DNA of 64,000 nt, taken from NCBI RefSeq assembly GCF_052324685.1, contig NW_027506876.1, forward strand, positions 310,001 through 374,000, written 5' to 3'. This document shows positions 1 through 64,000 of this stretch, one piece after another. The notes beneath the pieces are model-generated. The model saw only the letters and a list, made by a program, of their open reading frames with translations. It did no database searches and was not told the DNA's origin. Position 1 is the stretch's first letter, and every line of letters starts with the position of its first letter. The position numbers and the translations under genes were made by a program. The DNA is from Brachyhypopomus gauderio. Taxonomy: Eukaryota > Chordata > Actinopteri > Gymnotiformes > Hypopomidae.

Positions 1-278
1 AAAGTGAGCTGTCAGTCTCATGTGATCGATACAGGAATGTTTTAAATTGCCATGTACCTTGATAGCAGTACTAATGCAGCCGGTTCAATCAAAATGAAAC
101 TCAGTGGAAACGTACCTAGTGCTTTGTCATGTTGTCTCCCAACGTAGAAAATTCATGCCACTTGGTTGATTTGTAGACGTTTGTGTTATAAAGGGATCGA
201 ATGATGTCAACATTTGGTGTTTGGATGTGAATGTTTTGTCTTAAAGCAGAGTAGACCTACTGCTTAGCCAGTGTTGAT

Positions 279-476
279 CGGTTCAATCAAAATGAAACTC
301 AGTGGAAACGTACCTAGTGCTTTGTCATGTTGTCTCCCAACGTAGAAAACTCATGCTACTTGGTTGATTTGTAGACGTTTGTGTTATAAAGGTATCGAAT
401 GAAGTCAACATTTGGTGTTTGGATGTGAATGTTTTGTCTTAAAGCAGAGTAGACAGACTGCTTAGCAAGTGTTGAT
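279..476 (+). repeat. 198-bp spacer module, extra copy (example)
   Basis: In unit 1-908 the block starting CGGTTCAATC occurs at 81, 279 and 477, exactly 198 bp apart. It ends with the TATAAAG segment and GCTTAGCC. Extra copies start at about 279, 477, 1699, 2409, 2607, 3829, 4539, 5249, 6471, 7181, 8915, 10649, 12895, 15141, 15851, 18097 and 36726. Every extra copy is entered through the same joint, GTGTTGATCGG. Confidence 0.93.
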
Positions 477-743
477 CGGTTCAATCAAAATGAAACTCAG
501 TGGAAATGTACCTAGTGCTTTGTCATGTTGTCTCCAAACGTAGAAAACTCATGCTACTCGGTTGATTTGTAGACGTTTGTGTTATAAAGGTATCGAATGA
601 AGTCAACATTTGGTGTTTGGATGTGAATGTTTTGTCTTAAAGCAGAGTAGACCTACCGCTTAGCCATTGTTGACATGATGACTTCCATGCTCTGATTGTA
701 TGAGGAAACGCCCACGAGAGATGTGCCCATTCAGACAAGCAAG

Positions 744-816
744 GTTTCTGTAGTGTAGTGGTCATCACATTCGCCTAACACGCGAAAGGTCTCTGGTTCG
801 ATACCAGGCAGAAACA
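744..816 (+). tRNA. tRNA-Val (AAC), G26A C49T
   Basis: Unit 1-908 (908 bp, three modules, alpha). G26A is a CpG change; C49T leaves a T-G wobble in the T stem. Cloverleaf preserved. Confidence 0.92.
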
Positions 817-1094
817 TGCTTCTTGATAGAATTACAAACACACCACTGCTGTTTAGTGGTTTGTTGCCAGTGTAAAGGCTATCGGGGAGCTCTTCCCTTT
901 AGATCCTCAAAGTGAGCTCTCAGTCTCATGTGATCGATACAAGAATGTTCTAAATCGCCATGTACCTTGATAGCAGTACTAATGCAATCGGTTCAATCAA
1001 AATGAAACTCAGTGGAAACGTACCTAGTGCTTTGTCATGTTGTCTCCCAACGTAGAAAACTCATGCTACTCGGTTGATTTGTAGACGTTTGTGT

Positions 1095-1100
1095 TATAAA
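1095..1100 (+). promoter_or_regulatory. TATAAA motif in the spacer (representative unit)
   Basis: TTATAAAGG is conserved in the units inspected, 161 bp upstream of the tRNA here. The neighbouring bases vary between GTGTTATAAAG and GGTTTATAAAG. It is too far upstream to be a usual tRNA-gene TATA, and extra 198-bp modules each bring another copy. A promoter role is unproven. Confidence 0.35.
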
Positions 1101-1262
1101 GGTATCGAATGAAGTCAACATTTGGTGTTTGGATGTGAATGTTTTGTCTTAAAGCAGAGTAGACCTACCGCTTAGCCATTGTTGACATGATGACTTCCAT
1201 GCTCTGATTGTATGAGGAAACGCCCACGAGAGATGTGCCCATTCAGACCAGCAAGGTTTCTG

Positions 1263-1273
1263 TAGTGTAGTGG
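1263..1273 (+). promoter_or_regulatory. Pol III A box of a representative tRNA gene
   Basis: TAGTGTAGTGG at tRNA positions 8-18 fits the internal A box bound by TFIIIC. It is conserved in almost all copies; units 4971-5680 and 28256-28767 have changes at position 9 or 10. Confidence 0.85.
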
Positions 1274-1306
1274 TCATCACGTTCGCCTAACACGCGAAAG
1301 GTCCCT

Positions 1307-1317
1307 GGTTCGATACC
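1307..1317 (+). promoter_or_regulatory. Pol III B box of a representative tRNA gene
   Basis: GGTTCGATACC at tRNA positions 52-62 fits the B box consensus. Copies with A58T (GGTTCGTTACC), G57A, G53A or C62T have altered B boxes and may bind TFIIIC less well. Confidence 0.87.
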
Positions 1318-1331
1318 AGGCAGAAACATGC

Positions 1332-1336
1332 TTCTT
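1332..1336 (+). terminator. Possible non-canonical Pol III terminator TTCTT
   Basis: An interrupted T tract begins 4 nt after the tRNA end and recurs after nearly every copy (TTCAT after the T33G class). No run of four Ts follows for at least 130 bp. Interrupted T tracts can act as weak Pol III terminators; that it does so here is inference. Confidence 0.4.
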
Positions 1337-1354
1337 GATAGAATTACAAACACA

Positions 1355-1371
1355 CCACTGCTGTTTAGTGG
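1355..1371 (+). other. Conserved hairpin downstream of the tRNA
   Basis: CCACT, a 7-nt loop GCTGTTT, then AGTGG form a perfect 5-bp stem 27 nt after the tRNA end, followed by TTTGTTG. It is unchanged in nearly all units. It could mark the 3' region of read-through transcripts or be an accident fixed by homogenisation. Confidence 0.5.
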
Positions 1372-1965
1372 TTTGTTGCCAGTGTAAAGGCTATCGGGGA
1401 GCTCTTCCCTTTAGATCCTCAAAGTGAGCTCTCAGTCTCATGTGATCGATACAGGAATGTTCTAAATCGCCATGTACCTTGATAGCAGTACTAATGCAAT
1501 CAGTTCAAACAAAATGAAACTCAGTGGAAACGTACCTAGTGCTTTGTCATGTTGTCTCCCAACGTAGAAAACTCATGCTACTCGGTTGATTTGTAGACGT
1601 TTGTGTTATAAAGGGATCGAATGATGTCAACATTTGGTGTTTGGATGTGAATGTTTTGTCTTAAAGCAGAGTAGACCTACTGCTTAGCCAGTGTTGATCG
1701 GTTCAATCAAAATGAAACTCAGTGGAAACGTACCTAGTGCTTTGTCATGTTGTCTCCCAACGTAGAAAACTCATGCTACTTGGTTGATTTGTAGACGTTT
1801 GTGTTATAAAGGTATCGAATGAAGTCAACATTTGGTGTTTGGATGTGAATGTTTTGTCTTAAAGCAGAGTAGACCTACCGCTTAGCCATTGTTGACATGA
1901 TGACTTCCATGCTCTGATTGTATGACGAAACGCCCATGAGAGATGTGCCCATTCAGACAAGCAAG

Positions 1966-2038
1966 GTTTCTGTAGTGTAGTGGTCATCACGTTCGCCTAA
2001 CACGCGAAAGGTCCCTGGTTCGATACCAGGCAGAAACA
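1966..2038 (+). tRNA. tRNA-Val (AAC), consensus copy
   Basis: Unit 1421-2130 (710 bp, beta, one extra module at 1699). Consensus gene. The next TTTT is at 2170, in the following alpha spacer. Confidence 0.96.
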
Positions 2039-2873
2039 TGCTTCTTGATAGAATTACAAACACACCACTGCTGTTTAGTGGTTTGTTGCCAGTGTAAAGG
2101 CTATCAGGGAGCTCTTCCCTTTAGATCCTCAAAGTGAGCTGTCAGTCTCATGTGATCGATACAGGAATGTTTTAAATTGCCATGTACCTTGATAGCAGTA
2201 CTAATGCAGCCGGTTCAATCAAAATGAAACTCAGTGGAAACGTACCTAGTGCTTTGTCATGTTGTCTCCCAACGTAGAAAATTCATGCCACTTGGTTGAT
2301 TTGTAGACGTTTGTGTTATAAAGGGATCGAATGATGTCAACATTTGGTGTTTGGATGTGAATGTTTTGTCTTAAAGCAGAGTAGACCTACTGCTTAGCCA
2401 GTGTTGATCGGTTCAATCAAAATGAAACTCAGTGGAAACGTACCTAGTGCTTTGTCATGTTGTCTCCCAACGTAGAAAACTCATGCTACTTGGTTGATTT
2501 GTAGACGTTTGTGTTATAAAGGTATCGAATGAAGTCAACATTTGGTGTTTGGATGTGAATGTTTTGTCTTAAAGCAGAGTAGACCTACTGCTTAGCAAGT
2601 GTTGATCGGTTCAATCAAAATGAAACTCAGTGGAAATGTACCTAGTGCTTTGTCATGTTGTCTCCAAACGTAGAAAACTCATGCTACTCGGTTGATTTGT
2701 AGACGTTTGTGTTATAAAGGTATCGAATGAAGTCAACATTTGGTGTTTGGATGTGAATGTTTTGTCTTAAAGCAGAGTAGACCTACCGCTTAGCCATTGT
2801 TGACATGATGACTTCCATGCTCTGATTGTATGAGGAAACGCCCACGAGAGATGTGCCCATTCAGACAAGCAAG

Positions 2874-2946
2874 GTTTCTGTAGTGTAGTGGTCATCACAT
2901 TCGCCTAACACGCGAAAGGTCCCTGGTTCGATACCAGGCAGAAACA
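2874..2946 (+). tRNA. tRNA-Val (AAC), G26A
   Basis: Unit 2131-3038 (908 bp, alpha). Counterpart of the copy at 744 but without C49T, which is therefore the newer change. Confidence 0.94.
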
Positions 2947-3385
2947 TGCTTCTTGATAGAATTACAAACACACCACTGCTGTTTAGTGGTTTGTTGCCAG
3001 TGTAAAGGCTATCGGGGAGCTCTTCCCTTTAGATCCTCAAAGTGAGCTCTCAGTCTCATGTGATCGATACAAGAATGTTCTAAATCGCCATGTACCTTGA
3101 TAGCAGTACTAATGCAATCGGTTCAATCAAAATGAAACTCAGTGGAAACGTACCTAGTGCTTTGTCATGTTGTCTCCCAACGTAGAAAACTCATGCTACT
3201 CGGTTGATTTGTAGACGTTTGTGTTATAAAGGTATCGAATGAAGTCAACATTTGGTGTTTGGATGTGAATGTTTTGTCTTAAAGCAGAGTAGACCTACCG
3301 CTTAGCCATTGTTGACATGATGACTTCCATGCTCTGATTGTATGAGGAAACGCCCACGAGAGATGTGCCCATTCAGACCAGCAAG

Positions 3386-3458
3386 GTTTCTGTAGTGTAG
3401 TGGTCATCACGTTCGCCTAACACGCGAAAGGTCCCTGGTTCGATACCAGGCAGAAACA
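3386..3458 (+). tRNA. tRNA-Val (AAC), consensus copy
   Basis: Unit 3039-3550 (512 bp, gamma). Counterpart of the copy at 1256. Confidence 0.96.
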
Positions 3459-4095
3459 TGCTTCTTGATAGAATTACAAACACACCACTGCTGTTTAGTG
3501 GTTTGTTGCCAGTGTAAAGGCTATCGGGGAGCTCTTCCCTTTAGATCCTCAAAGTGAGCTCTCAGTCTCATGTGATCGATACAGGAATGTTCTAAATCGC
3601 CATGTACCTTGATAGCAGTACTAATGCAATCAGTTCAAACAAAATGAAACTCAGTGGAAACGTACCTAGTGCTTTGTCATGTTGTCTCCCAACGTAGAAA
3701 ACTCATGCTACTCGGTTGATTTGTAGACGTTTGTGTTATAAAGGGATCGAATGATGTCAACATTTGGTGTTTGGATGTGAATGTTTTGTCTTAAAGCAGA
3801 GTAGACCTACTGCTTAGCCAGTGTTGATCGGTTCAATCAAAATGAAACTCAGTGGAAACGTACCTAGTGCTTTGTCATGTTGTCTCCCAACGTAGAAAAC
3901 TCATGCTACTTGGTTGATTTGTAGACGTTTGTGTTATAAAGGTATCGAATGAAGTCAACATTTGGTGTTTGGATGTGAATGTTTTGTCTTAAAGCAGAGT
4001 AGACCTACCGCTTAGCCATTGTTGACATGATGACTTCCATGCTCTGATTGTATGACGAAACGCCCATGAGAGATGTGCCCATTCAGACAAGCAAG

Positions 4096-4168
4096 GTTTC
4101 TGTAGTGTAGTGGTCATCACGTTCGCCTAACACGCGAAAGGTCCCTGGTTCGATACCAGGCAGAAACA
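4096..4168 (+). tRNA. tRNA-Val (AAC), consensus copy
   Basis: Unit 3551-4260 (710 bp, beta). Counterpart of the copy at 1966; both units share GACGAAACGCCCATGAG upstream. Confidence 0.96.
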
Positions 4169-4805
4169 TGCTTCTTGATAGAATTACAAACACACCACTG
4201 CTGTTTAGTGGTTTGTTGCCAGTGTAAAGGCTATCAGGGAGCTCTTCCCTTTAGATCCTCAAAGTGAGCTGTCAGTCTCATGTGATCGATACAGGAATGT
4301 TTTAAATTGCCATGTACCTTGATAGCAGTACTAATGCAGCCGGTTCAATCAAAATGAAACTCAGTGGAAACGTACCTAGTGCTTTGTCATGTTGTCTCCC
4401 AACGTAGAAAATTCATGCCACTTGGTTGATTTGTAGACGTTTGTGTTATAAAGGGATCGAATGATGTCAACATTTGGTGTTTGGATGTGAATGTTTTGTC
4501 TTAAAGCAGAGTAGACCTACTGCTTAGCCAGTGTTGATCGGTTCAATCAAAATGAAACTCAGTGGAAACGTACCTAGTGCTTTGTCATGTTGTCTCCCAA
4601 CGTAGAAAACTTATGCTACTCGGTTGATTTGTAGACGTTTGTGTTATAAAGGGATCGAATGATGTCAACATTTGGTGTTTGGATGTGAATGTTTTGTCTT
4701 AAAGCAGAGTAGACCTACTGCTTAGCCATTGTTGACATGATGACTTCCATGCTCTGATTGTATGAGGAAACGCCCACGAGAGATGTGCCCATTCAGACAA
4801 GCAAG

Positions 4806-4878
4806 GTTTCTGTAGTGTAGTGGTCATCACGTTCGCCTAACACGCGAAAGGTCCCTGGTTCGATACCAGGCAGAAACA
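4806..4878 (+). tRNA. tRNA-Val (AAC), consensus copy
   Basis: Unit 4261-4970 (710 bp, alpha). Followed by AAGCTTCTTGATAGAAG, where CTTCT/AGAAG can form a 5-bp hairpin. Confidence 0.96.
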
Positions 4879-5515
4879 AGCTTCTTGATAGAAGTACAAA
4901 CACACCACTGCTGTTTAGTGGTTTGTTGCCAGTGTAAAGGCTATCGGGGAGCTCTTCCCTTTAGATCCTCAAAGTGAGCTCTCAGTCTCATGTGATCGAT
5001 ACAGGAATGTTCTAAATCGCCATGTACCTTGATAGCAGTACTAATGCAATCAGTTCAAACAAGATGAAACTCAGTGGAAACGTACCTAGTGCTTTGTCAT
5101 GTTGTCTCCCAACGTAGAAAACTCATGCTACTCGGTTGATTTGTAGACGTTTGTGTTATAAAGGGATCGAATGATGTCAACATTTGGTGTTTGGATGTGA
5201 ATGTTTTGTCTTAAAGCAGAGTAGACCTACTGCTTAGCCAGTGTTGATCGGTTCAATCAAAATGAAACTCAGTGGAAACGTACCTAGTGCTTTGTCATGT
5301 TGTCTCCCAACGTAGAAAACTCATGCTACTTGGTTGATTTGTAGACGTTTGTGTTATAAAGGTATCGAATGAAGTCAACATTTGGTGTTTGGATGTGAAT
5401 GTTTTGTCTTAAAGCAGAGTAGACCTACCGCTTAGCCATTGTTGACATGATGACTTCCATGCTCTGATTGTATGAGGAAACGCCCACGAGAGATGTGCCC
5501 ATTCAGACAAGCAAG

Positions 5516-5588
5516 GTTTCTGTTGTGTAGTGGTCATCACATACGCCTAACACGCGAAAGGTCCCTGGTTCGATACCAGGCAGAAACA
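5516..5588 (+). tRNA. tRNA-Val (AAC)-like, A9T G26A T28A, probably impaired
   Basis: Unit 4971-5680 (710 bp, beta). A9T alters the A box, and T28A puts A opposite A42 in the anticodon stem. The most divergent copy in domain A; likely a pseudogene. Confidence 0.82.
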
Positions 5589-6027
5589 TGCTTCTTGATA
5601 GAATTACAAACACACCACTGCTGTTTAGTGGTTTGTTGCCGGTGTAAAGGCTATCGGGGAGCTCTTCCCTTTAGATCCTCAAAGTGAGCTCTCAGTCTCA
5701 TGTGATCAATACAAGAATGTTCTAAATCGCCATGTACCTTGATAGCAGTACTAATGCAATCGGTTCAATCAAAATGAAACTCAGTGGAAACGTACCTAGT
5801 GCTTTATCATGTTGTCTACCAACGTAGAAAACTCATGTTACTCGGTTGATTTGTAGACGTTTGTGTTATAAAGGTATCGAATGAAGTCAACATTTGGTGT
5901 TTGGATGTGAATGTTTTGTCTTAAAGCAGAGTAGACCTACTGCTTAGCCATTGTTGACATGATTACTTCCATGCTCTGATTGTATGAGGAAACGCCCACG
6001 AGAGATGTGCCCATTCAGACAAGCAAG

Positions 6028-6100
6028 GTTTCTGTAGTGTAGTGGTCATCACGTTCGCCTAACATGCGAAAGGTCCCTGGTTCGATACCAGGCAGAAACA
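6028..6100 (+). tRNA. tRNA-Val (AAC), C38T
   Basis: Unit 5681-6192 (512 bp, gamma). Anticodon loop CTAACAT; otherwise consensus. Confidence 0.94.
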
Positions 6101-6737
6101 TGCTTCTTGATAGAATTACAAACACACCACTGCTGTTTAGTGGTTTGTTGCCAGTGTAAAGGCTATCGGGGAGCTCTTCCCTTTAGATCCTCAAAGTGAG
6201 CTCTCAGTCTCATGTGATCGATACAGGAATGTTCTAAATCGCCATGTACCTTCATAGCAGTACTAATGCAATCAGTTCAAACTAAATGAAACTCAGTGGA
6301 AACGTACGTAGTGCTTTGTCATGTTGTCTCCCAACGTAGAAAACTCATGCTACTCGGTTGATTTGTAGACGTTTGTGTTATAAAGGGATCGAATGATGTC
6401 AACATTTGGTGTTTGGATGTGAATGTTTTGTCTTAAAGCAGAGTAGACCTACTGCTTAGCAAGTGTTGATCGGTTCAATCAAAATGAAACTCAGTGGAAA
6501 CGTACGTAGTGCTTTGTCATGTTGTCTCCCAACGTAGAAAACTCATGCTACTTGGTTGATTTGTAGACGTTTGTGTTATAAAGGTATCGAATAAAGTCAA
6601 CATTTGGTGTTTGGATGTGAATGTTTTGTCTTAAAGCAGAGTAGACCTACCGCTTAGCCATTGTTGACATGATGACTTCCATGCTCTGATTGTATGAGGA
6701 AACGCCCACGAGAGATGTGCCCATTCAGACAAGCAAG

Positions 6738-6810
6738 GTTTCTGTAGTGTAGTGGTCATCACATTCGCCTAACACGCGAAAGGTCCCTGGTTCGATACCA
6801 GGCAGAAACA
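6738..6810 (+). tRNA. tRNA-Val (AAC), G26A
   Basis: Unit 6193-6902 (710 bp, beta). Spacer marks CTTCATAGC and GTACGTAG link it to the beta units of domain B. Confidence 0.94.
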
Positions 6811-7447
6811 TGCTTCTTGATAGAATTACAAACACACCACTGCTGTTTAGTGGTTTGTTGCCAGTGTAAAGGCTATCAGGGAGCTCTTCCCTTTAGATCC
6901 TCAAAGTGAGCTGTCAGTCTCATGTGATCGATACAGGAATGTTTTAAATTGCCATGTACCTTGATAGCAGTACTAATGCAGCCGGTTCAATCAAAATGAA
7001 ACTCAGTGGAAACGTACCTAGTGCTTTGTCATGTTGTCTCCCAACGTAGAAAACTCATGCCACTTGGTTGATTTGTAGACGTTTGGGTTATAAAGGGATC
7101 GAATGATGTCAACATTTGGTGTTTGGATGTGAATGTTTTGTCTTAAAGCAGAGTAGACCTACTGCTTAGCCAGTGTTGATCGGTTCAATCAAAATGAAAC
7201 TCAGTGGAAACGTACCTAGTGCTTTGTCATGTTGTCTCCCAACGTAGAAAACTCATGCTACTTGGTTGATTTGTAGACGTTTGTGTTATAAAGGTATCGA
7301 ATGAAGTCAACATTTGGTGTTTGGATGTGAATGTTTTGTCTTAAAGCAGAGTAGACCTACCGCTTAGCCATTGTTGACATGATGACTTCCATGCTCTGAT
7401 TGTATGAGGAAACGCCCATGAGAGATGTGCCCATTCAGACAAGCAAG

Positions 7448-7520
7448 GTTTCTGTAGTGTAGTGGTCATCACGTTCGCCTAACATGCGAAAGGTCCCTGG
7501 TTCGATACCAGGCAGAAACA
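7448..7520 (+). tRNA. tRNA-Val (AAC), C38T
   Basis: Unit 6903-7612 (710 bp, alpha). First unit of a 710-512-512 triplet; GTTTGGGTTATAAAG is a private spacer variant shared with unit 8637-9346. Confidence 0.94.
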
Positions 7521-7959
7521 TGCTTCTTGATAGAATTACAAACACACCACTGCTGTTTAGTGGTTTATTGCCAGTGTAAAGGCTATCAGGGAGCTCTTCC
7601 CTTTAGATCCTCAAAGTGAGCTGTCAGTCTCATGTGATCGATACAGGAATGTTTTAAATTGCCATGTACCTTGATAGCAGTACTAATGCAGCCGGTTCAA
7701 TCAAAATGAAACTCAGTGGAAACGTACCTAGTGCTTTGTCATGTTGTCTCCCAACGTAGAAAACTCATGCCACTTGGTTGATTTGTAGACGTTTGTGTTA
7801 TAAAGGGATCGAATGATGTCAACATTTGGTGTTTGGATGTGAATGTTTTGTCTTAAAGCAGAGTAGACCTACCGCTTAGCCATTGTTGACATGATGACTT
7901 CCATGCTCTGATTGTATGAGGAAACGCCCACGAGAGATGTGCCCATTCAGACAAGCAAG

Positions 7960-8032
7960 GTTTCTGTAGTGTAGTGGTCATCACGTTCGCCTAACATGCG
8001 AAAGGTCCCTGGTTCGATACCAGGCAGAAACA
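7960..8032 (+). tRNA. tRNA-Val (AAC), C38T
   Basis: Unit 7613-8124 (512 bp, alpha). Second unit of the triplet. Confidence 0.94.
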
Positions 8033-8471
8033 TGCTTCTTGATAGAATTACAAACACACCACTGCTGTTTAGTGGTTTGTTGCCAGTGTAAAGGCTATCG
8101 GGGAGCTCTTCCCTTTAGATCCTCAAAGTGAGCTCTCAGTCTCATGTGATCGATACAGGAATGTTCTAAATTGCCATGTACCTTGATAGCAGTACTAATG
8201 CAATCAGTTCAAACAAAATGAAACTCAGTGGAAACGTACGTAGTGCTTTGTCATGTTGTCTCCCAACGTAGAAAAGTCATGCTACTCGGTTGATTTGTAG
8301 ACGTTTGTGTTATAAAGGTATCGAATGAAGTCAACATTTGGTGTTTGGATGTGAATGTTTTGTCTTAAAGCAGAGTAGACCTACCGCTTAGCCATTGTTG
8401 ACATGATGACTTCCATGCTCTGATTGTATGAGGAAACGCCCATGAGAGATGTGCCCATTCAGACAAGCAAG

Positions 8472-8544
8472 GTTTCTGTAGTGTAGTGGTCATCACGTTC
8501 GCCTAACACGCGAAAGGTCCCTGGTTCGATACCAGGCAGAAACA
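8472..8544 (+). tRNA. tRNA-Val (AAC), consensus copy
   Basis: Unit 8125-8636 (512 bp, beta). Third unit of the triplet. Confidence 0.96.
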
Positions 8545-9181
8545 TGCTTCTTGATAGAATTACAAACACACCACTGCTGTTTAGTGGTTTGTTGCCAGTG
8601 TAAAGGCTATCAGGGAGCTCTTCCCTTTAGATCCTCAAAGTGAGCTGTCAGTCTCATGTGATCGATACAGGAATGTTTTAAATTGCCATGTACCTTGATA
8701 GCAGTACTAATGCAGCCGGTTCAATCAAAATGAAACTCAGTGGAAACGTACCTAGTGCTTTGTCATGTTGTCTCCCAACGTAGAAAACTCATGCCACTTG
8801 GTTGATTTGTAGACGTTTGGGTTATAAAGGGATCGAATGATGTCAACATTTGGTGTTTGGATGTGAATGTTTTGTCTTAAAGCAGAGTAGACCTACTGCT
8901 TAGCCAGTGTTGATCGGTTCAATCAAAATGAAACTCAGTGGAAACGTACCTAGTGCTTTGTCATGTTGTCTCCCAACGTAGAAAACTCATGCTACTTGGT
9001 TGATTTGTAGACGTTTGTGTTATAAAGGTATCGAATGAAGTCAACATTTGGTGTTTGGATGTGAATGTTTTGTCTTAAAGCAGAGTAGACCTACCGCTTA
9101 GCCATTGTTGACATGATGACTTCCATGCTCTGATTGTATGAGGAAACGCCCATGAGAGATGTGCCCATTCAGATAAGCAAG

Positions 9182-9254
9182 GTTTCTGTAGTGTAGTGGT
9201 CATCACATTCGCCTAACATGCGAAAGGTCCCTGGTTCGATACCAGGCAGAAACA
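9182..9254 (+). tRNA. tRNA-Val (AAC), G26A C38T
   Basis: Unit 8637-9346 (710 bp, alpha). Both changes are CpG transitions; stems intact. Confidence 0.93.
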
Positions 9255-46130: not shown

Positions 46131-46133
<3 letters not shown>

Positions 46134-54389: not shown

Positions 54390-54462
54390 GTTTCTGTAGT
54401 GTAGTGGTCATCACGTTTGCCTAACACGCGAAAGGTCCCTGGTTCGATACCAGGCAGAAACA
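54390..54462 (+). tRNA. tRNA-Val (AAC), C29T
   Basis: Unit 54043-54554 (512 bp, alpha). Counterpart of the copy at 45185. Confidence 0.93.
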
Positions 54463-54901: not shown

Positions 54902-54974
54902 GTTTCTGTAGTGTAGTGGTCATCACGTTTGCCTAACTTGCGAAAGGTCCCTGGTTCGATACCAGGCAGAAACA
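54902..54974 (+). tRNA. tRNA-Val (AAC), C29T A37T C38T
   Basis: Unit 54555-55066 (512 bp, gamma with GGAAATGTACC). Its first half matches the sequence left of the transposon at 45350-45593. Confidence 0.9.
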
Positions 54975-55413
54975 TGCTTCTTGATAGAATTACAAACACA
55001 CCACTGCTGTTTAGTGGTTTGTTGCCAGTGTAAAGGCTATCGGGGAGCTCTTCCCTTTAGATCCTCAAAGTGAGCTCTCAGTCTCATGTGATCGATACAG
55101 GAATGTTCTAAATCGCCATGTACCTTGATAGCAGTACTAATGCAATCGGTTCAATCAAAATGAAACTCAGTGGAAATGTACCTAGTGCTTTGTCATGTTG
55201 TCTCCCAACGTAGAAAACTCATGCTACTCGGTTGATTTGTAGACGTTTGTGTTATAAAGGGATCGAATGATGTCAACATTTGGTGTTTGGATGTGAATGT
55301 TTTATCTTAAAGCAGAGTAGACCTACTGCTTAGCCATTGTTGACATGATGACTTCCATGCTCTGATTGTATGAGGAAACGCCCACGAGAGATGTGCCCAT
55401 TCAGACAAGCAAG

Positions 55414-55486
55414 GTTTCTGTAGTGTAGTGGTCATCACGTTCGCCGAACACGTGAAAGGTCCCTGGTTCGTTACCAGGCAGAAACA
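55414..55486 (+). tRNA. tRNA-Val (AAC)-like, T33G C40T A58T, probably pseudo
   Basis: Unit 55067-55578 (512 bp, gamma). The only member of this class on a gamma spacer. Confidence 0.84.
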
Positions 55487-55925
55487 TGCTTCATGATAGA
55501 ATTACAAACACACCACTGCTGTTTAGTGGTTTGTTGCCAGTGTAAAGGCTATCGGGGAGCTCTTCCCTTTAGATCCTCAAAGTGAGCTCTCAGTCTCATG
55601 TGATCGATACAGGAATGTTCTAAATCGCCATGTACCTTGATAGCAGTACTAATGCAATCAGTTCAAACAAAATGAAACTCAGTGGAAACGTACGTAGTGC
55701 TTTGTCATGTTGTCTCCCAACGTAGAAAACTCATGCTACTCGGTTGATTTGTAGACGTTTGTGTTATAAAGGTATCGAATGAAGTCAACATTTGGTGTTT
55801 GGATGTGAATGTTTTGTCTTAAAGCAGAGTAGACCTACCGCTTAGCCATTGTTGACATGATGACTTCCATGCTCTGATTGTATGAGGAAACGCCCACGAG
55901 AGATGTGCCCATTCAGACAAGCAAG

Positions 55926-55998
55926 GTTTCTGTAGTGTAGTGGTCATCACGTTCGCCTAACACGCGAAAGGTCCCTGGTTCGATACCAGGCAGAAACA
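55926..55998 (+). tRNA. tRNA-Val (AAC), consensus copy
   Basis: Unit 55579-56090 (512 bp, beta). Confidence 0.96.
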
Positions 55999-56437
55999 TG
56001 CTTCTTGATAGAATTACAAACACACCACTGCTGTTTAGTGGTTTGTTGCCAGTGTAAAGGCTATCGGGGAGCTCTTCCCTTTAGATCCTCAAAGTGAGCT
56101 CTCAGTCTCATGTGATCGATACAAGAATGTTCTAAATCGCCATGTACCTTGATAGCAGTACTAATGCAATCGGTTCAATCAAAATGAAACTCAGTGGAAA
56201 CGTACCTAGTGCTTTGTCATGTTGTCTCCCAACGTAGAAAACTCATGCTACTCGGTTGATTTGTAGACGTTTGTGTTATAAAGGTATCGAATGAAGTCAA
56301 CATTTGGTGTTTGGATGTGAATGTTTTGTCTTAAAGCAGAGTAGACCTACCGCTTAGCCATTGTTGACATGATGACTTCCATGCTCTGATTGTATGAGGA
56401 AACGCCCACGAGAGATGGGCCCATTTGGACAAGCAAG

Positions 56438-56510
56438 GGTTCTGTAGTGTAGTGGTCATCACGTTCGCCTAACGTGCGAAAGGTCCCTGGTTCGATACTA
56501 GGCAGAAACA
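56438..56510 (+). tRNA. tRNA-Val (AAC), T2G A37G C38T C62T
   Basis: Unit 56091-56602 (512 bp, gamma). Last copy with C62T. Confidence 0.87.
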
Positions 56511-56949
56511 AGCTTCTTGATAGAATTACAAACACACCACTGCTGTTTAGTGGTTTGTTGCCAGTGTAAAGGCTATCAGGGAGCTCTTCCCTTTAGATCC
56601 TCAAAGTGAGCTGTCAGTGTCATGTGATCGATACAGGAATGTTTTAAATCGCCATGTACCTTGATAGCAGTACTAATGCAGCCGGTTCAATCAAAATGAA
56701 ACTCAGTGGAAACGTACGTAGTGCTTTGTCATGTTGTCTCCCAACGTAGAAAACTCATGCTACTCGGTTGATTTGTAGACGTTTGTGTTATAAAGGGATC
56801 GAATGATGTCAACATTTGGTGTTTGGATGTGAATGTTTTGTCTTAAAGCAGAGTAGACCTACTGCTTAGCCATTGTTGACATGATGACTTCCATGCTCTG
56901 ATTGTATGAGGAAACGCCCACGAGAGATGTGCCCATTCAGACAAGCAAG

Positions 56950-57022
56950 GTTTCTGTAGTGTAGTGGTCATCACGTTTGCCTAACACGCGAAAGGTCCCT
57001 GGTTCGATACCAGGCAGAAACA
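56950..57022 (+). tRNA. tRNA-Val (AAC), C29T
   Basis: Unit 56603-57114 (512 bp, alpha). Confidence 0.93.
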
Positions 57023-57461
57023 TGCTTCTTGATAGAATTACAAACACACCACTGCTGTTTAGTGGTTTGTTGCCAGTGTAAAGGCTATCGGGGAGCTCTT
57101 CCCTTTAGATCCTCAAAGTGAGCTCTCAGTCTCATGTGATCGATACAGGAATGTTCTAAATCGCCATGTACCTTGATAGCAGTACTAATGCAATCGGTTC
57201 AATCAAAATGAAACTCAGTGGAAATGTACCTAGTGCTTTGTCATGTTGTCTCCCAACGTAGAAAACTCATGCTACTCGGTTGATTTGTAGACGTTTGTGT
57301 TATAAAGGGATCGAATGATGTCAACATTTGGTGTTTGGATGTGAATGTTTTGTCTTAAAGCAGAGTAGACCTACTGCTTAGCCATTGTTGACATGATGAC
57401 TTCCATGCTCTGATTGTATGAGGAAACACCCACGAGAGATGTGCCCATTCAGACAAGCAAG

Positions 57462-57534
57462 GTTTCTGTAGTGTAGTGGTCATCACGTTTGCCTAACTTG
57501 CGAAAGGTCCCTGGTTCGATACCAGGCAGAAACA
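57462..57534 (+). tRNA. tRNA-Val (AAC), C29T A37T C38T
   Basis: Unit 57115-57626 (512 bp, gamma). Confidence 0.9.
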
Positions 57535-57973
57535 TGCTTCTTGATAGAATTACAAACACACCACTGCTGTTTAGTGGTTTGTTGCCAGTGTAAAGGCTAT
57601 CGGGGAGCTCTTCCCTTTAGATCCTCAAAGTGAGCTCTCAGTCTCATGTGATCGATACAGGAATGTTCTAAATCGCCATGTACCTTGATAGCAGTACTAA
57701 TGCAATCGGTTCAATCAAAATGAAACTCAGTGGAAATGTACCTAGTGCTTTGTCATGTTGTCTCCCAACGTAGAAAACTCATGCTACTCGGTTGATTTGT
57801 AGACGTTTGTGTTATAAAGGGATCGAATGATGTCAACATTTGGTGTTTGGATGTGAATGTTTTGTCTTAAAGCAGAGTAGACCTACTGCTTAGCCATTGT
57901 TGACATGATGACTTCCATGCTCTGATTGTATGAGGAAACACCCACGAGAGATGTGCCCATTCAGACAAGCAAG

Positions 57974-58046
57974 GTTTCTGTAGTGTAGTGGTCATCACGT
58001 TTGCCTAACTTGCGAAAGGTCCCTGGTTCGATACCAGGCAGAAACA
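57974..58046 (+). tRNA. tRNA-Val (AAC), C29T A37T C38T
   Basis: Unit 57627-58138 (512 bp, gamma). Direct duplicate of the preceding unit, in the slot where the five-unit repeat would put a T33G copy. Confidence 0.9.
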
Positions 58047-58485
58047 TGCTTCTTGATAGAATTACAAACACACCACTGCTGTTTAGTGGTTTGTTGCCAG
58101 TGTAAAGGCTATCGGGGAGCTCTTCCCTTTAGATCCTCAAAGTGAGCTCTCAGTCTCATGTGATCGATACAGGAATGTTCTAAATCGCCATGTACCTTCA
58201 TAGCAGTACTAATGCAATCAGTTCAAACAAAATGAAACTCAGTGGAAACGTACGTAGTGCTTTGTCATGTTGTCTCCCAACGTAGAAAACTCATGCTACT
58301 CGGTTGATTTGTAGACGTTTGTGTTATAAAGGGATCGAATGATGTCAACATTTGGTGTTTGGATGTGAATGTTTTGTCTTAAAGCAGAGTAGACCTACTG
58401 CTTAGCCATTGTTGACATGATGACTTCCATGCTCTGATTGTATGAGGAAACGCCCACGAGAGATGGGCCCATTCGGACAAGCAAG

Positions 58486-58558
58486 GGTTCTGTAGTGTAG
58501 TGGTCATCACGTTCGCCTAACGTGCGAAAGGTCCCTGGTTCGATACCAGGCAGAAACA
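58486..58558 (+). tRNA. tRNA-Val (AAC), T2G A37G C38T
   Basis: Unit 58139-58650 (512 bp, beta). First unit of domain D. Confidence 0.88.
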
Positions 58559-58997
58559 AGCTTCTTGATAGAATTACAAACACACCACTGCTGTTTAGTG
58601 GTTTGTTGCCAGTGTAAAGGCTATCGGGGAGCTCTTCCCTTTAGATCCTCAAAGTGAGCTCTCAGTCTCATGTGATCGATACAGGAATGTTCTAAATCGC
58701 CATGTACCTTCATAGCAGTACTAATGCAATCAGTTCAAACAAAATGAAACTCAGTGGAAACGTACGTAGTGCTTTGTCATGTTGTCTCCCAACGTAGAAA
58801 ACTCATACTACTCGGTTGATTTGTAGACGTTTGTGTTATAAAGGGATCGAATGATGTCAACATTTGGTGTTTGGATGTGAATGTTTTGTCTTAAAGCAGA
58901 GTAGACCTACTGCTTAGCCATTGTTGACATGATGACTTCCATGCTCTGATTGTATGAGGAAACGCCCACGAGAGATGGGCCCATTCGGACAAGCAAG

Positions 58998-59070
58998 GGT
59001 TCTGTAGTGTAGTGGTCATCACGTTCGCCTAACGTGCGAAAGGTCCCTGGTTCGATACCAGGCAGAAACA
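58998..59070 (+). tRNA. tRNA-Val (AAC), T2G A37G C38T
   Basis: Unit 58651-59162 (512 bp, beta). Direct duplicate of the preceding unit apart from CTCATACTAC. Confidence 0.88.
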
Positions 59071-59509
59071 AGCTTCTTGATAGAATTACAAACACACCAC
59101 TGCTGTTTAGTGGTTTGTTGCCAGTGTAAAGGCTATCGGGGAGCTCTTCCCTTTAGATCCTCAAAGTGAGCTGTCAGTCTCATGTGATCGATACAGGAAT
59201 GTTTTAAATCGCCATGTACCTTGATAGCAGTACTAATGCAGCCGGTTCAATCAAAATGAAACTCAGTGGAAACGTACGTAGTGCTTTGTCATGTTGTCTC
59301 CCAACGTAGAAAACTCATGCTACTCGGTTGATTTGTAGACGTTTGTGTTATAAAGGGATCGAATGATGTCAACATTTGGTGTTTGGATGTGAATGTTTTG
59401 TCTTAAAGCAGAGTAGACCTACTGCTTAGGCATTGTTGACATGATGACTTCCATGCTCTGATTGTATGAGGAAACGCCCACGAGAGATGTGCCCATTCAG
59501 ACAAGCAAG

Positions 59510-59582
59510 GTTTCTGTAGTGTAGTGGTCATCACGTTCGCCTAACACGCGAAAGGTCCCTGGTTCGATACCAGGCAGAAACA
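59510..59582 (+). tRNA. tRNA-Val (AAC), consensus copy
   Basis: Unit 59163-59674 (512 bp, alpha). Confidence 0.96.
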
Positions 59583-60021
59583 TGCTTCTTGATAGAATTA
59601 CAAACACACCACTGCTGTTTAGTGGTTTGTTGCCAGTGTAAAGGCTATCGGGGAGCTCTTCCCTTTAGATCCTCAAAGTGAGCTCTCAGTCTCATGTGAT
59701 CGATACAGGAATGTTCTAAATCGCCATGTACCTTCATAGCAGTACTAATGCAATCAGTTCAAACAAAATGAAACTCAGTGGAAACGTACGTAGTGCTTTG
59801 TCATGTTGTCTCCCAACGTAGAAAACTCATGCTACTCGGTTGATTTGTAGACGTTTGGTTTATAAAGGGATCGAATGATGTCAACATTTGGTGTTTGGAT
59901 GTGAATGTTTTGTCTTAAAGCAGAGTAGACCTACTGCTTAGCCATTGTTGACATGATGACTTCCAAGCTCTGATTGTATGAGGAAACACCCACGAGAGAT
60001 GTGCCCATTCAGACAAGCAAG

Positions 60022-60094
60022 GTTTCTGTAGTGTAGTGGTCATCACGTTTGCCTAACTTGCGAAAGGTCCCTGGTTCGATACCAGGCAGAAACA
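60022..60094 (+). tRNA. tRNA-Val (AAC), C29T A37T C38T
   Basis: Unit 59675-60186 (512 bp, beta, GGTTTATAAAG form). Private CCAAGCTCTG upstream. Confidence 0.9.
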
Positions 60095-60533
60095 TGCTTC
60101 TTGATAGAATTACAAACACACCACTGCTGTTTAGTGGTTTGTTGCCAGTGTAAAGGCTATCGGGGAGCTCTTCCCTTTAGATCCTCAAAGTGAGCTCTCA
60201 GTCTCATGTGATCGATACAGGAATGTTCTAAATCGCCATGTACCTTGATAGCAGTACTAATGCAATCAGTTCAAACAAAATGAAACTCAGTGGAAACGTA
60301 CGTAGTGCTTTGTCATGTTGTCTCCCAACGTAGAAAACTCATGCTACTCGGTTGATTTGTAGACGTTTGTGTTATAAAGGGATCGAATGATGTCAACATT
60401 TGGTGTTTGGATGTGAATGTTTTGTCTTAAAGCAGAGTAGACCTACTGCTTAGCCATTGTTGACATGATGACTTCCATGCTCTGATTGTATGAGGAAACG
60501 CCCACGAGAGATGGGCCCATTCGGACAAGCAAG

Positions 60534-60606
60534 GGTTCTGTAGTGTAGTGGTCATCACGTTCGCCTAACGTGCGAAAGGTCCCTGGTTCGATACCAGGCA
60601 GAAACA
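60534..60606 (+). tRNA. tRNA-Val (AAC), T2G A37G C38T
   Basis: Unit 60187-60698 (512 bp, beta). Confidence 0.88.
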
Positions 60607-61045
60607 AGCTTCTTGATAGAATTACAAACACACCACTGCTGTTTAGTGGTTTGTTGCCAGTGTAAAGGCTATCAGGGAGCTCTTCCCTTTAGATCCTCAA
60701 AGTGAGCTGTCAGTCTCATGTGATCGATACAGGAATGTTTTAAATCGCCACGTACCTTGATAGCAGTACTAATGCAGCCGGTTCAATCAAAATGAAACTC
60801 AGTGGAAACGTACGTAGTGCTTTGTCATGTTGTCTCCCAACGTAGAAAACTCATGCTACTCGGTTGATTTGTAGACGTTTGTGTTATAAAGGGATCGAAT
60901 GATGTCAACATTTGGTGTTTGGATGTGAATGTTTTGTCTTAAAGCAGAGTAGACCTACTGCTTAGCCATTGTTGACATGATGACTTCCATGCTCTGATTG
61001 TATGAGGAAACGCCCACGAGAGATGTGCCCATTCAGACAATCAAG

Positions 61046-61118
61046 GTTTCTGTAGTGTAGTGGTCATCACGTTCGCCTAACACGAGAAAGGTCCCTGGTT
61101 CGATACCAGGCAGAAACA
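61046..61118 (+). tRNA. tRNA-Val (AAC), C40A
   Basis: Unit 60699-61210 (512 bp, alpha). GACAATCAAG leader. Confidence 0.89.
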
Positions 61119-61557
61119 TGCTTCTTGATAGAATTACAAACACACCACTGCTGTTTAGTGGTTTGTTGCCAGTGTAAAGGCTATCGGGGAGCTCTTCCCT
61201 TTAGATCCTCAAAGTGAGCTCTCAGTCTCATGTGATCGATACAGGAATGTTCTAAATCGCCATGTACCTTCATAGCAGTACTAATGCAATCAGTTCAAAC
61301 AAAATGAAACTCAGTGGAAACGTACATAGTGCTTTGTCATGTTGTCTTCCAACGTAGAAAACTCATGCTACTCGGTTGATTTGTAGACGTTTGTGTTATA
61401 AAGGGATCGAATGATGTCAACATTTGGTGTTTGGATGTGAATGTTTTGTCTTAAAGCAGAGTAGACCTACTGCTTAGCCATTGTTGACATGATGACTTCC
61501 ATGCTCTGATTGTATGAGGAAACACCCACGAGAGATGTGCCCATTCAGACAAGCAAG

Positions 61558-61630
61558 GTTTCTGTAGTGTAGTGGTCATCACGTTTGCCTAACTTGCGAA
61601 AGGTCCCTGGTTCGATACCAGGCAGAAACA
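61558..61630 (+). tRNA. tRNA-Val (AAC), C29T A37T C38T
   Basis: Unit 61211-61722 (512 bp, beta, GTACATAG mark). Confidence 0.9.
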
Positions 61631-62069
61631 TGCTTCTTGATAGAATTACAAACACACCACTGCTGTTTAGTGGTTTGTTGCCAGTGTAAAGGCTATCGGG
61701 GAGCTCTTCCCTTTAGATCCTCAAAGTGAGCTCTCAGTCTCATGTGATCGATACAGGAATGTTCTAAATCGCCATGTACCTTCATAGCAGTACTAATGCA
61801 ATCAGTTCAAACAAAATGAAACTCAGTGGAAACGTACGTAGTGCTTTGTCATGTTGTCTCCCAACGTAGAAAACTCATGCTACTCGGTTGATTTGTAGAC
61901 GTTTGTGTTATAAAGGGATCGAATGATGTCAACATTTGGTGTTTGGATGTGAATGTTTTATCTTAAAGCAGAGTAGACCTACTGCTTAGCCATTGTTGAC
62001 ATGATGACTTCCATGCTCTGATTGTATGAGGAAACGCCCACGAGAGATGGGCCCATTCGGACAAGCAAG

Positions 62070-62142
62070 GGTTCTGTAGTGTAGTGGTCATCACGTTCGC
62101 CTAACGTGCGAAAGGTCCCTGGTTCGATACCAGGCAGAAACA
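62070..62142 (+). tRNA. tRNA-Val (AAC), T2G A37G C38T
   Basis: Unit 61723-62234 (512 bp, beta). Carries TTTTATCTTAAAG, elsewhere the mark of the T33G class: a mosaic unit. Confidence 0.88.
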
Positions 62143-62581
62143 AGCTTCTTGATAGAATTACAAACACACCACTGCTGTTTAGTGGTTTGTTGCCAGTGTA
62201 AAGGCTATCAGGGAGCTCTTCCCTTTAGATCCTCAAAGTGAGCTGTCAGTCTCATGTGATCGATACAGGAATGTTTTAAATCGCCACGTACCTTGATAGC
62301 AGTACTAATGCAGCCGGTTCAATCAAAATGAAACTCAGTGGAAACGTACGTAGTGCTTTGTCATGTTGTCTCCCAACGTAGAAAACTCATGCTACTCGGT
62401 TGATTTGTAGACGTTTGTGTTATAAAGGGATCGAATGATGTCAACATTTGGTGTTTGGATGTGAATGTTTTGTCTTAAAGCAGAGTAGACCTACTGCTTA
62501 GGCATTGTTGACATGATGACTTCCATGCTCTGATTGTATGAGGAAACGCCCACGAGAGATGGGCCCATTCAGACAAGCAAG

Positions 62582-62654
62582 GTTTCTGTAGTGTAGTGGT
62601 CATCACGTTCGCCTAACACGCGAAAGGTCCCTGGTTCGATACCAGGCAGAAACA
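62582..62654 (+). tRNA. tRNA-Val (AAC), consensus copy
   Basis: Unit 62235-62746 (512 bp, alpha). GATGGGCCCATT leader ahead of a consensus gene. Confidence 0.96.
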
Positions 62655-63093
62655 TGCTTCTTGATAGAATTACAAACACACCACTGCTGTTTAGTGGTTT
62701 GTTGCCAGTGTAAAGGCTATCGGGGAGCTCTTCCCTTTAGATCCTCAAAGTGAGCTCTCAGTCTCATGTGATCGATACAGGAATGTTCTAAATCGCCATG
62801 TACCTTCATAGCAGTACTAATGCAATCAGTTCAAACAAAATGAAACTCAGTGGAAACGTACGTAGTGCTTTGTCATGTTGTCTCCCAACGTAGAAAACTC
62901 ATGCTACTCGGTTGATTTGTAGACGTTTGGTTTATAAAGGGATCGAATGATGTCAACATTTGGTGTTTGGATGTGAATGTTTTGTCTTAAAGCAGAGTAG
63001 ACCTACTGCTTAGCCATTGTTGACATGATGACTTCCATGCTCTGATTGTATGAGGAAACGCCCACGAGAGATGTGCCTATTCAGACAAGCAAG

Positions 63094-63166
63094 GTTTCTG
63101 TAGTGTAGTGGTCATCACGTTCGCCTAACACGCGAAAGGTCCCTGGTTCGATACCAGGCAGGAACA
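63094..63166 (+). tRNA. tRNA-Val (AAC), A69G
   Basis: Unit 62747-63258 (512 bp, beta). A69G gives a T4-G69 wobble in the acceptor stem. Confidence 0.92.
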
Positions 63167-63605
63167 AGCTTCTTGATAGAAGAACAAACACACCACTGCT
63201 GTTTAGTGGTTTGTTGCCAGTGTAAAGGCTATCAGGGAGCTCTTCCCTTTAGATCCTCAAAGTGAGCTGTCAGTCTCATGTGATCGATACAGGAATGTTT
63301 TAAATCGCCACGTACCTTGATAGCAGTACTAATGCAGCCGGTTCAATCAAAATGAAACTCAGTGGAAACGTACGTAGTGCTTTGTCATGTTGTCTCCCAA
63401 CGTAGAAAACTCATGCTACTCGGTTGATTTGTAGACGTTTGTGTTATAAAGGGATCGAATGATGTCAACATTTGGTGTTTGGATGTGAATGTTTTGTCTT
63501 AAAGCAGAGTAGACCTACTGCTTAGGCATTGTTGACATGATGACTTCCATGCTCTGATTGTATGAGGAAACGCCCACGAGAGATGTGCCCATTCAGACAA
63601 GCAAG

Positions 63606-63678
63606 GTTTCTGTAGTGTAGTGGTCATCACGTTCGCCTAACACGCGAAAGGTCCCTGGTTCGATACCAGGCAGAAACA
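63606..63678 (+). tRNA. tRNA-Val (AAC), consensus copy
   Basis: Unit 63259-63770 (512 bp, alpha). Last complete unit. Confidence 0.96.
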
Positions 63679-63770
63679 TGCTTCTTGATAGAATTACAAA
63701 CACACCACTGCTGTTTAGTGGTTTGTTGCCAGTGTAAAGGCTATCGGGGAGCTCTTCCCTTTAGATCCTC

Positions 63771-64000
63771 AAATTGAGCTCTCAGTCTCATGTGATCGAT
63801 ACAGGAATGTTCTAAATCGCCATGTACCTTCATAGCAGTACTAATGCAATCAGTTCAAACAAAATGAAACTCAGTGGAAACGTACGTAGTGCTTTGTCAT
63901 GTTGTCTCCCAACGTAGAAAACTCATGCTACTCGGTTGATTTGTAGACGTTTGGTTTATAAAGGGATCGAATGATGTCAACATTTGGTGTTTGGATGTGA
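63771..64000 (+). repeat. Partial last unit, spacer only
   Basis: The first 230 bp of a beta-family unit, starting AAATTGAGCT (one base off the usual start). The window ends about 117 bp before the expected tRNA. Confidence 0.95.

Follow-up and report, generated by a model that had tools for sequence, protein, structure and literature searches.

The window, by which we mean the whole stretch of 64,000 nucleotides analysed here, is a slice of a tandem repeat of valine tRNA genes that is roughly one megabase long, and within this array the signals of constraint and of decay conflict. We give about even weight to the reading that it is a tRNA-Val satellite derived from a working isodecoder, which may function in part as a valine supply, probably of the oocyte type, and in which most of the copies would be decaying spares.

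Structure and extent of the array

ARAGORN identified 116 tRNA genes in the window, all of them tRNA-Val(AAC) on the + strand and comprising 23 sequence variants with 48 identical copies, in agreement with the preliminary description, which had claimed just such a head-to-tail series in one orientation. Rfam, run at the gathering threshold with fast filters, reported 107 of the 116. The spacings between tRNAs were 512 bp (99 cases), 710 bp (13), 908 bp (1), 511 bp (1) and 1525 bp (1), the 710- and 908-bp units containing one or two additional copies of a 198-bp segment. The unit match spans the entire window save for an insert of 1,009 bp (45594-46602), and a tandem tRNA-Val array of this kind is far beyond chance. 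Its features are:

1..45593, + strand: tandem array with one tRNA-Val(AAC) in each unit, unit length 512 bp (314 + 198) or 710/908 bp
81..673, + strand: internal 198-bp segment in three tandem copies
744..816, + strand: the window's first tRNA-Val(AAC) (ARAGORN)
1256..1328, + strand: modal tRNA-Val(AAC), an example of the 48 identical copies (ARAGORN)
39958..44217, + strand: 4,260-bp exact duplicate, copy one
45590..46606, no strand assigned: insert within one unit, flanked by TTAA at both ends
46603..50862, + strand: 4,260-bp exact duplicate, copy two
46603..64000, + strand: tandem array resumed, units five apart being most similar
63606..63678, + strand: the window's last tRNA-Val(AAC) (ARAGORN)

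Units 83-115 of the window form a higher-order repeat, the mean difference between units being lowest at lag 5 (6.1 sites), followed by lag 10 (9.3) and lag 15 (10.9), as against 12.3-14.5 for all remaining lags to 14. Having head-to-tail units, high identity and higher-order repeats, the array is satellite DNA, and the 198-bp length steps together with the higher-order repeats suggest growth by unequal exchange. The earlier proposal of a satellite that carries a tRNA holds in this respect, as a description of the mode of evolution, to which damaged alleles at spacer-like copy numbers also belong. The terminal inverted repeats of the insert are imperfect, with 78% complementarity across 18 nt, and it looks like a non-autonomous piggyBac-type remnant. 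Pfam searches with three frames of it gave nothing above the cut-off (best E 0.044, 13.7 bits vs 31.7), the gathering score was reached by tRNA only when Rfam was run at a relaxed E-value over 43600-47400, and the tRNA core had no relatives in the viral and prokaryote collections.

Follow-up searches covered the window's own genome (796.5 Mb), which by its size and the parallels with zebrafish is probably that of a fish. The array runs along contig C32 from base 1 to about 526.8 kb, interrupted by inserts, and is found again on contig C96. The unit pattern has at least 1,651 matches. The array crosses both window edges, as had been claimed, and the true copy number is higher. The array had also been described as having no end in sight, which does not hold: the last unit observed occupies C32:526283-526827, and no array shows in probes placed at 532 kb or further along. 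Other tRNA arrays are present in the same genome.

That a few units were merely expanded by misassembly is hardly credible. The 4,260-bp exact duplicate makes a local error possible and C32 and C96 both begin within the array; however, the window's 99 units of 512 bp include 67 distinct ones, inserts occur at single places, the array is divided into three anticodon blocks, and three pieces of C96, compared with the C32 stretches retrieved, reach only 95.5-97.3% identity in their longest matches. Assembly expansion of the window as a whole seems unlikely on these sequence comparisons.

Three anticodons on one tRNA body

All copies had been said to keep the AAC anticodon, which is true within the window but not array-wide, where CAC and TAC are common: 521 sampled copies comprised 316 AAC, 126 CAC, 75 TAC and 4 AAA, counted ungapped at a match of at least 58/73, so that truncated or gapped copies can be missed (five broken copies were seen). 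The uniformity of the window is no evidence of selection, because the chance of zero anticodon hits under neutral mutation is 0.42. Wobble base 34 of the modal body was found as A, C or T, with 178 exact cores for AAC and 306 for CAC, while GAC was found neither in the modal-body flank nor, as a core, anywhere in the genome (0). Block consensuses differ in the tRNA at position 34 only, except in the 15 AAC units below 100 kb, which differ also at 57, and between blocks of unlike anticodon the spacers show 8-18 differences over 439 sites. When 88 alleles are ordered by copy number, the two wobble alleles come first and third, an outcome with a chance of 0.0008 once two such alleles exist. The anticodon changes 16 times on a tree built from 256 spacer rows (AAC, CAC or TAC in 253), as compared with 80-94 in 50 shuffles, although this low number is not special to position 34, since positions 29, 38 and 64 change 17, 23 and 16 times. 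An MK-type test between anticodon blocks had no power (P = 0.34-1.0).

Among the matches listed, there are at least five dispersed valine genes (four AAC and one CAC), with a body unlike that of the array and, in all five, a terminator of four or more T within 19 nt; genome searches for a dispersed Val-TAC gene found none. In a check for a tRNA-derived SINE, the 40 matches listed for each of two queries all belong to C32 or to five separate genes; weaker, scattered copies may lie beyond these lists. The array body is marked by T6-A67, C20, T51-A63 and T59 and differs from the dispersed bodies at no fewer than six sites besides the anticodon, the differences including compensatory pairs (6-67 and 51-63 against both bodies, and 4-69 also against the AAC body). 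The array is a separate valine isodecoder family with three anticodons and few dispersed genes beside it, and its tandem genes have, among the matches listed, a body distinct from that of the dispersed genes, as in a maternal tDNA array. Going further, it is a rather doubtful possibility that the satellite is the only source of tRNA-Val(UAC) and the main source of tRNA-Val(CAC), that the anticodon set evolved in the repeat by wobble switching, and that two valine codons would depend on a megabase array kept whole while its copies mostly decay.

Drift, decay and long-term constraint

In the window, single copies appear to drift almost neutrally, an interpretation supported by the distribution of variants. 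Variable sites amount to 22/73 in the tRNA and 70/439 in the spacer (P = 0.008), a difference that is not significant at non-CpG sites only (P = 0.21); no purifying selection on single copies is detectable there, damaging alleles being no rarer than spacer alleles (P = 0.46) and reaching 15 copies. In the first 30 units, a set whose boundary was drawn post hoc, damage is low, one of seven alleles being damaging (P = 0.022). New structural lesions affect 46 of the 116 window copies, and lesions are found in 306 of the 521 sampled array copies, a lesion being a broken stem pair, the loss of U33, A58 or purine 37, or a changed A73. The rules for a sound copy (stem pairs and conserved bases) are our own set, taken from general tRNA knowledge, and the modal gene's lack of G at string position 19 was set aside in scoring. 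In the window, transitions have hit 18 of the 34 bases in CpG, compared with 24 of the 188 C/G elsewhere (odds ratio 7.7), which points indirectly to methylation. A surplus of mutations surrounding the gene, which would hint at transcription, is suggestive only (non-CpG P = 0.064).

These observations give weight to a serious though less probable alternative, namely that a captured tRNA gene was amplified by unequal exchange and is carried as a passenger in an inert satellite yielding little or no usable tRNA, as tRNA diversity is not lowered in the window and CpG decay and higher-order repeats are seen. The comparison of diverged units argues against this alternative. In the diverged edge unit the tRNA has changed at 4/73 sites and the spacer at 84/453 (Fisher P = 0.0037). 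In C36, two CAC units show 0/72 tRNA changes and 68-71 of about 429 in the spacer, but they were located by exact tRNA match and thus picked for identity; an unpicked AAC unit between them shows 4/72 against 71-77 of about 430 (Fisher P = 0.006-0.012), and a second AAC unit, which is incomplete, has 6 tRNA changes. Complete diverged units thus have 0-4 of 72-73 tRNA sites changed at 16-19% spacer divergence, and selection has probably acted on the array tRNA over the long term, as these comparisons support. An inert passenger would also fit poorly with three anticodons on one body that all still specify valine, with the abundance of exact CAC and AAC cores, and with the searches that found no dispersed TAC gene.

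The Pol III signals are mixed. The A-box stretch is kept in 114 of the 116 window copies and the exact B box in 99, with A58T in 8 copies and C62T in 7. The frequency of B boxes, and the implication of a human tRNA tandem repeat as a boundary (PMC4041453), would suit the chromatin boundary proposed earlier, or a TFIIIC-binding block, where B boxes and not the tRNA matter. We consider this improbable: B-box bases mutate too, wobble switching and body conservation would stay unexplained, and CTCF-like matches (to a general consensus) are at chance, 14 vs 14.55 expected, instead of one site per unit as in a boundary macrosatellite of the 1q23.3 type. Matches to the CENP-B box motif, allowing one mismatch, number 68 vs 3.7 expected, but all have the anticodon-arm form and follow from the tRNA.

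Runs of four T are rare shortly downstream: the first lies more than 130 nt away in 469 of 499 units, which favours the inert satellite, and within 40 nt in 25. Runs of four or more T within 20 nt occur in 24 of 455 units, all of them tRNA-damaged, and in 0 of the 181 sound units, an association that is weak because few lineages are involved. Two further features are relevant:

1329..1339, + strand: 3' trailer TGCTTCTTGAT, the same in the diverged edge unit
1355..1371, + strand: possible hairpin CCACT-GCTGTTT-AGTGG, with TTTA at +36

TTCTT lies near +4 in most of the 455 units and is a candidate weak Pol III terminator. In four diverged units (C36 and edge) a run of four or more T begins at +34 to +36, where the array consensus has TTTA. 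With TTCTT kept in the edge unit and these runs present, the argument that the copies have no terminator and are consequently dead has been softened.

Proposed origin and known systems

In the reading that we prefer, a functional tRNA-Val gene with a body of its own would have become the unit of a tandem repeat and grown to the number of units counted here, and the wobble base would have switched inside the array, probably from A to C and T, giving the AAC, CAC and TAC blocks observed on one body. The array may provide the germ line or the egg with tRNAs of all three valine anticodons, as the repetitive tDNA of zebrafish does, and may be methylated and mostly silent elsewhere; intact copies would do the work and the others would be decaying spares, with Pol III relying on the A and B boxes inside the gene and on a weak terminator at TTCTT or +36. 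The earlier idea of a dosage device is partly supported by the distinct three-anticodon family and by long-term constraint, the supply role itself being putative. With all three anticodons of one amino acid on one body in one homogenising repeat, the array is a naturally occurring system for tracing the switching of anticodons, the dosage of genes and the evolution of a satellite from one copy to the next. An array that feeds the egg would open the zebrafish oocyte/somatic split to testing in another genome by sequence marks alone, given the sites at which the array body differs; an array that is the sole source of UAC would place an essential decoding function in satellite DNA.

Arrays of tRNA genes are already known, and a valine array with three anticodon blocks on one body is a variant of them. 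The Xenopus oocyte-type unit holds multiple tRNAs, whereas the present array has a single tRNA per unit. According to a commentary, the Xenopus genes, which are likewise tandem, are active around the start of embryonic transcription and under cytosine-modification control (PMC11500080). The zebrafish tDNA clusters, chiefly on chromosome 4, resemble the array in having very many genes, almost every adjacent pair of them parallel, beside isolated ones (PMC11417395, PMC11574265, PMC2888827), although adjacent zebrafish pairs mostly differ in amino acid (PMC2888827) and the 512-bp unit holds almost only valine. Zebrafish egg isodecoders are reported to come from repetitive regions and later-rising ones from scattered genes; Val-AAC isodecoders gain share at 10-24 hpf and not in the egg (PMC11417395), which argues against an egg role for the window's AAC blocks. 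In the embryos described, large-cluster tRNA genes are near-completely methylated at early stages, most tRNA genes are without open chromatin, both of which would suit an inert satellite, and tRNA level does not follow from the number of gene copies (PMC11574265). Maize tRNASAT_ZM, a 91.95-kb array, is likewise a satellite classed by its tRNA content, but in a plant and at about a tenth of the length (PMC10335936). The human 1q23.3 VNTR also has tRNA genes in each unit and a variable copy number, but its unit, present in 9-43 copies, is 7.3 kb long and GC-rich and carries five tRNAs as well as CTCF sites (PMC4041453). Arabidopsis SYY, a methylated tandem tDNA used in one tissue, offers a model for arrays that are mostly silent but active locally, though with Ser and Tyr genes and in a plant (PMC12308677). 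Entamoeba, finally, devotes a large share of its DNA to tandem tRNA arrays, but is a protist with up to five tRNAs per unit and 25 unit types (PMC2652664).

Extent and composition of the array

The preliminary description had claimed 116 tandem copies of tRNA-Val(AAC) in one orientation, 48 of them identical, and the ARAGORN count and the grouping of variants proved it right: every one of the 116 tRNA genes in the window is a Val(AAC) gene on the + strand, and these fall into 23 sequence variants, one of them shared by 48 copies. Spacing from gene to gene was 512 bp in 99 cases, 710 bp in 13, and 908, 511 and 1525 bp in one case each, each unit combining a 314-bp part with a 198-bp segment that is present once, twice or three times. 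The sole stretch not matching the unit (45594-46602) belongs to an inserted element, which also holds an (AC)n run; a fragment inside it resembles an acidic transposase N-terminus, and a Pfam search of the element returned nothing above the cut-off. The longest exact repeat in the window, of 4,260 bp, either arose through recent duplication of the block or is an error of local assembly.

Features in the window
45590-46606: inserted element, TTAA at both ends, imperfect terminal inverted repeats
39958-44217 and 46603-50862: 4,260-bp exact duplicate, the second copy starting directly after the TTAA element

The order of units is periodic in places. Units 83-115 (from base 47222) differ on average at 6.1 sites at a lag of five units, 9.3 at lag 10 and 10.9 at lag 15, the other lags up to 14 giving 12.3-14.5, and units 40-65 differ less at even than at odd lags at short range (15.8 at lag 1, 8.2 at lag 2, 7.2 at lag 8).

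A search of the 796.5-Mb assembly placed the window at 310001-374000 of the contig C32. ARAGORN identified 187 Val genes in C32:1-100000 (106 CAC, 66 TAC, 15 AAC), and 142 AAC, one CAC and three genes with AAA in C32:374001-474000; over C32:1-530000, which comprises 300,237 known bases, 501 ungapped copies were counted (316 AAC, 115 CAC, 66 TAC, 4 AAA). Probes at 120-125 kb and near 150 kb showed both CAC and AAC genes, those at 170, 200, 270 and 520 kb contained two AAC genes apiece, and the one at 500 kb was mostly non-array sequence. The last unit seen (526283-526827, hereafter the edge unit) is strongly diverged, and the array was absent from probes at 532, 540, 550, 600 and 700 kb.

Inserts in the array on C32
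34284-36765
355594-356602
468962-474033: about 5 kb long, LINE-like on visual inspection

Genome-wide, a 31-bp spacer pattern (at most three mismatches) gave 831 forward and 820 reverse matches, with none for the control. Among the 100 places listed, the reverse ones fall on another contig, C96 (621,222 bp), whose start likewise lies in the array; of 20 copies sampled on C96, 11 were CAC and 9 TAC, and the array was absent from its pieces at 500001 and 620023. On the simplest reading, the array stretches on C32 and C96 would belong to a single array, about 1 Mb long, that an assembly gap interrupts. The exact 66-base AAC core has 178 matches in the genome, all forward, the CAC core has 306 (26 forward, 280 reverse), and GAC within the 29-base modal flank has none.

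Anticodons, terminators and dispersed valine genes

On C32, base 34 is the only difference between the modal AAC sequence and the modal TAC sequence. The modal body with C34 was found in 21 of 126 sampled CAC copies, and the commonest CAC variant on C32 has one further change relative to it. Consensus tRNAs of the blocks also differ at 34 alone, apart from the 15 AAC units before 100 kb, which differ at 57 as well, and spacers differ at 8-18 of 439 sites between blocks of unlike anticodon and at 4-11 among AAC blocks. The 521 sampled copies carry 88 derived alleles, of which the wobble alleles are the first and third by copy number, and copies free of structural lesions by our rule set amount to 158/316 AAC, 25/126 CAC, 32/75 TAC and 0/4 AAA. 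Mapped on a tree of the distinct spacers, the anticodon switches 16 times, as against 80-94 in shuffles; because positions 29, 38 and 64 do so at least as often, this clustering indicates linkage to spacer lineages and not selection at 34.

T4 was missing within 130 nt of the tRNA in 469 of 499 array units and lay within 40 nt in 25. Most of the 455 units checked have TTCTT, a candidate terminator, near +4, and the 24 among them with T4 or longer within 20 nt all carry a damaged tRNA. The edge unit has a T-run at +36, where the big-array consensus reads TTTA. Four T are enough for termination in humans (PMC5356446), and weak T-tracts can be aided by hairpins, according to mostly yeast evidence (PMC9278858).

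At least five Val genes lie outside the array among the best 40 matches listed for a canonical Val query, and in each of these five a run of T4 or longer occurs within 19 nt.

Dispersed Val genes
C4: CAC
C19: AAC
C16: AAC (two genes)
C1: AAC

Compensatory pairs at 6-67 and 51-63 (in the AAC genes also at 4-69) and sites 20 and 59 set these genes apart from the array body, and the AAC genes have a T-G pair at 50-64, unlike the array body. A human-type TAC query yielded only partial matches (84-86%), to the five dispersed genes and to two copies on C96. With at most two mismatches allowed, a TAC version of the dispersed T-arm matched no genes but these five, and the tRNA family search scored 63 of its 74,024 first-look candidates. 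These searches thus brought up no TAC gene outside the array, although they could miss a more divergent one.

Selection on the tRNA

A flaw was scored where a stem pair was broken or where U33, the purine at 37, a conserved base of the T-loop or A73 was changed. By these rules 70 of the 116 window copies have no new flaw, namely 29/30 of the first units, 22/35 of the middle and 19/51 of the rest, with boundaries set after the data were seen. Across 113 aligned window units, variable sites were more frequent in the tRNA than in the spacer (22/73 vs 70/439; p 0.008), and the difference was not significant at non-CpG sites only (p 0.21). CpG transitions affected 18/34 CpG bases vs 24/188 of the remaining C and G, as would be expected from germ-line methylation of the array DNA. 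Distinct tRNA alleles numbered 25 vs 14 predicted from spacer rates. Eleven of the 25 are singly damaging vs 14.7 under random placement (P = 0.07 for at most 11), which hints faintly at constraint. Given the variability of the tRNA sites, that damaging and spacer alleles have alike copy numbers (p 0.46), and that the chance of no anticodon mutation among all 116 copies is 0.42, purifying selection on single copies inside the window leaves no clear sign.

Over longer times the edge unit and a third locus of the array unit, on C36 near 797 kb, are informative. Between edge unit and array, 4/73 tRNA sites changed vs 84/453 spacer sites (p 0.0037), with full identity over the 11 bases 3' of the tRNA; the edge unit tRNA itself is damaged, having the anticodon AAA and a lost C56. 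At C36, spacer changes amount to 68-71 of about 429. The two CAC copies there, both picked by exact match, show zero tRNA changes, the AAC unit that separates these two has 4/72 (p 0.006-0.012), and a second, incomplete AAC unit has six. These counts indicate that the tRNA evolved more slowly than the spacer, with tRNA-only conversion between loci as a possible alternative cause. In the 1,800 bases read, C36:793-801 kb appears as a diverged relative of the array, intact CAC units alternating with changed AAC units; the three complete units there have T4 at +34 or +36, in place of the TTTA of the big-array consensus.

The signs of partial function are real (long-term constraint, wobble-base switching, no other TAC gene found), and so are those of decay (lesions, CpG loss, no canonical terminator). 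We give about even chances to the array being partly functional, as a putative valine supply most likely of oocyte type. That it is an inert satellite, with the decay in its favor and the partial-function evidence against it, is a serious possibility of less than even probability.

Other tRNA arrays and known systems

Two further arrays, read in pieces selected near top-scoring matches, show that tRNA arrays are a habit of the B. gauderio genome.

Other tRNA arrays
C71, 47.8-514 kb: Lys-TTT (+), Leu-TAG (+), Glu-CTC (-); unit of about 971 bp
C7, 24.156-24.287 Mb and 23.219 Mb: Thr-TGT; unit of about 1,219 bp

The 11 C7 Thr copies read all have the TGT anticodon and TTTT at +8 (7/11 identical). 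In the Leu, Glu and Thr copies read, T4 or longer begins at +6 to +11; it is absent within 40-56 nt of the Lys copies, so that a near T4 is missing from both Val and Lys array units. A Lys-TTT copy at C1:52113808 shares its 3' flank with the C71 array. Further tRNA matches lie thousands of bases apart, namely Cys-GCA at C2:47.63-47.65 Mb and one at C4:23030905 that ARAGORN labels Thr-TGT and that lacks T4 within 60 nt.

In zebrafish, according to PMC11417395, egg isodecoders are encoded in repetitive regions and those that rise later by scattered genes, Val-AAC isodecoders increasing their share only at 10-24 hpf. PMC11574265 describes large zebrafish tRNA clusters as near-completely methylated in early embryos and tRNA levels as not predicted by copy number. 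Among the papers listed by text searches of the open literature, none showed an array that unites three isoacceptors for a single amino acid. Neighbouring zebrafish tRNA pairs are mostly of unlike amino acids (PMC2888827). A 92-kb tRNA satellite is known in maize (PMC10335936) and a tRNA VNTR in human (PMC4041453). The Val array is a tRNA satellite of this known general kind, and it is unusual in its build, with one body and three valine anticodons in blocks over about 1,650 units.
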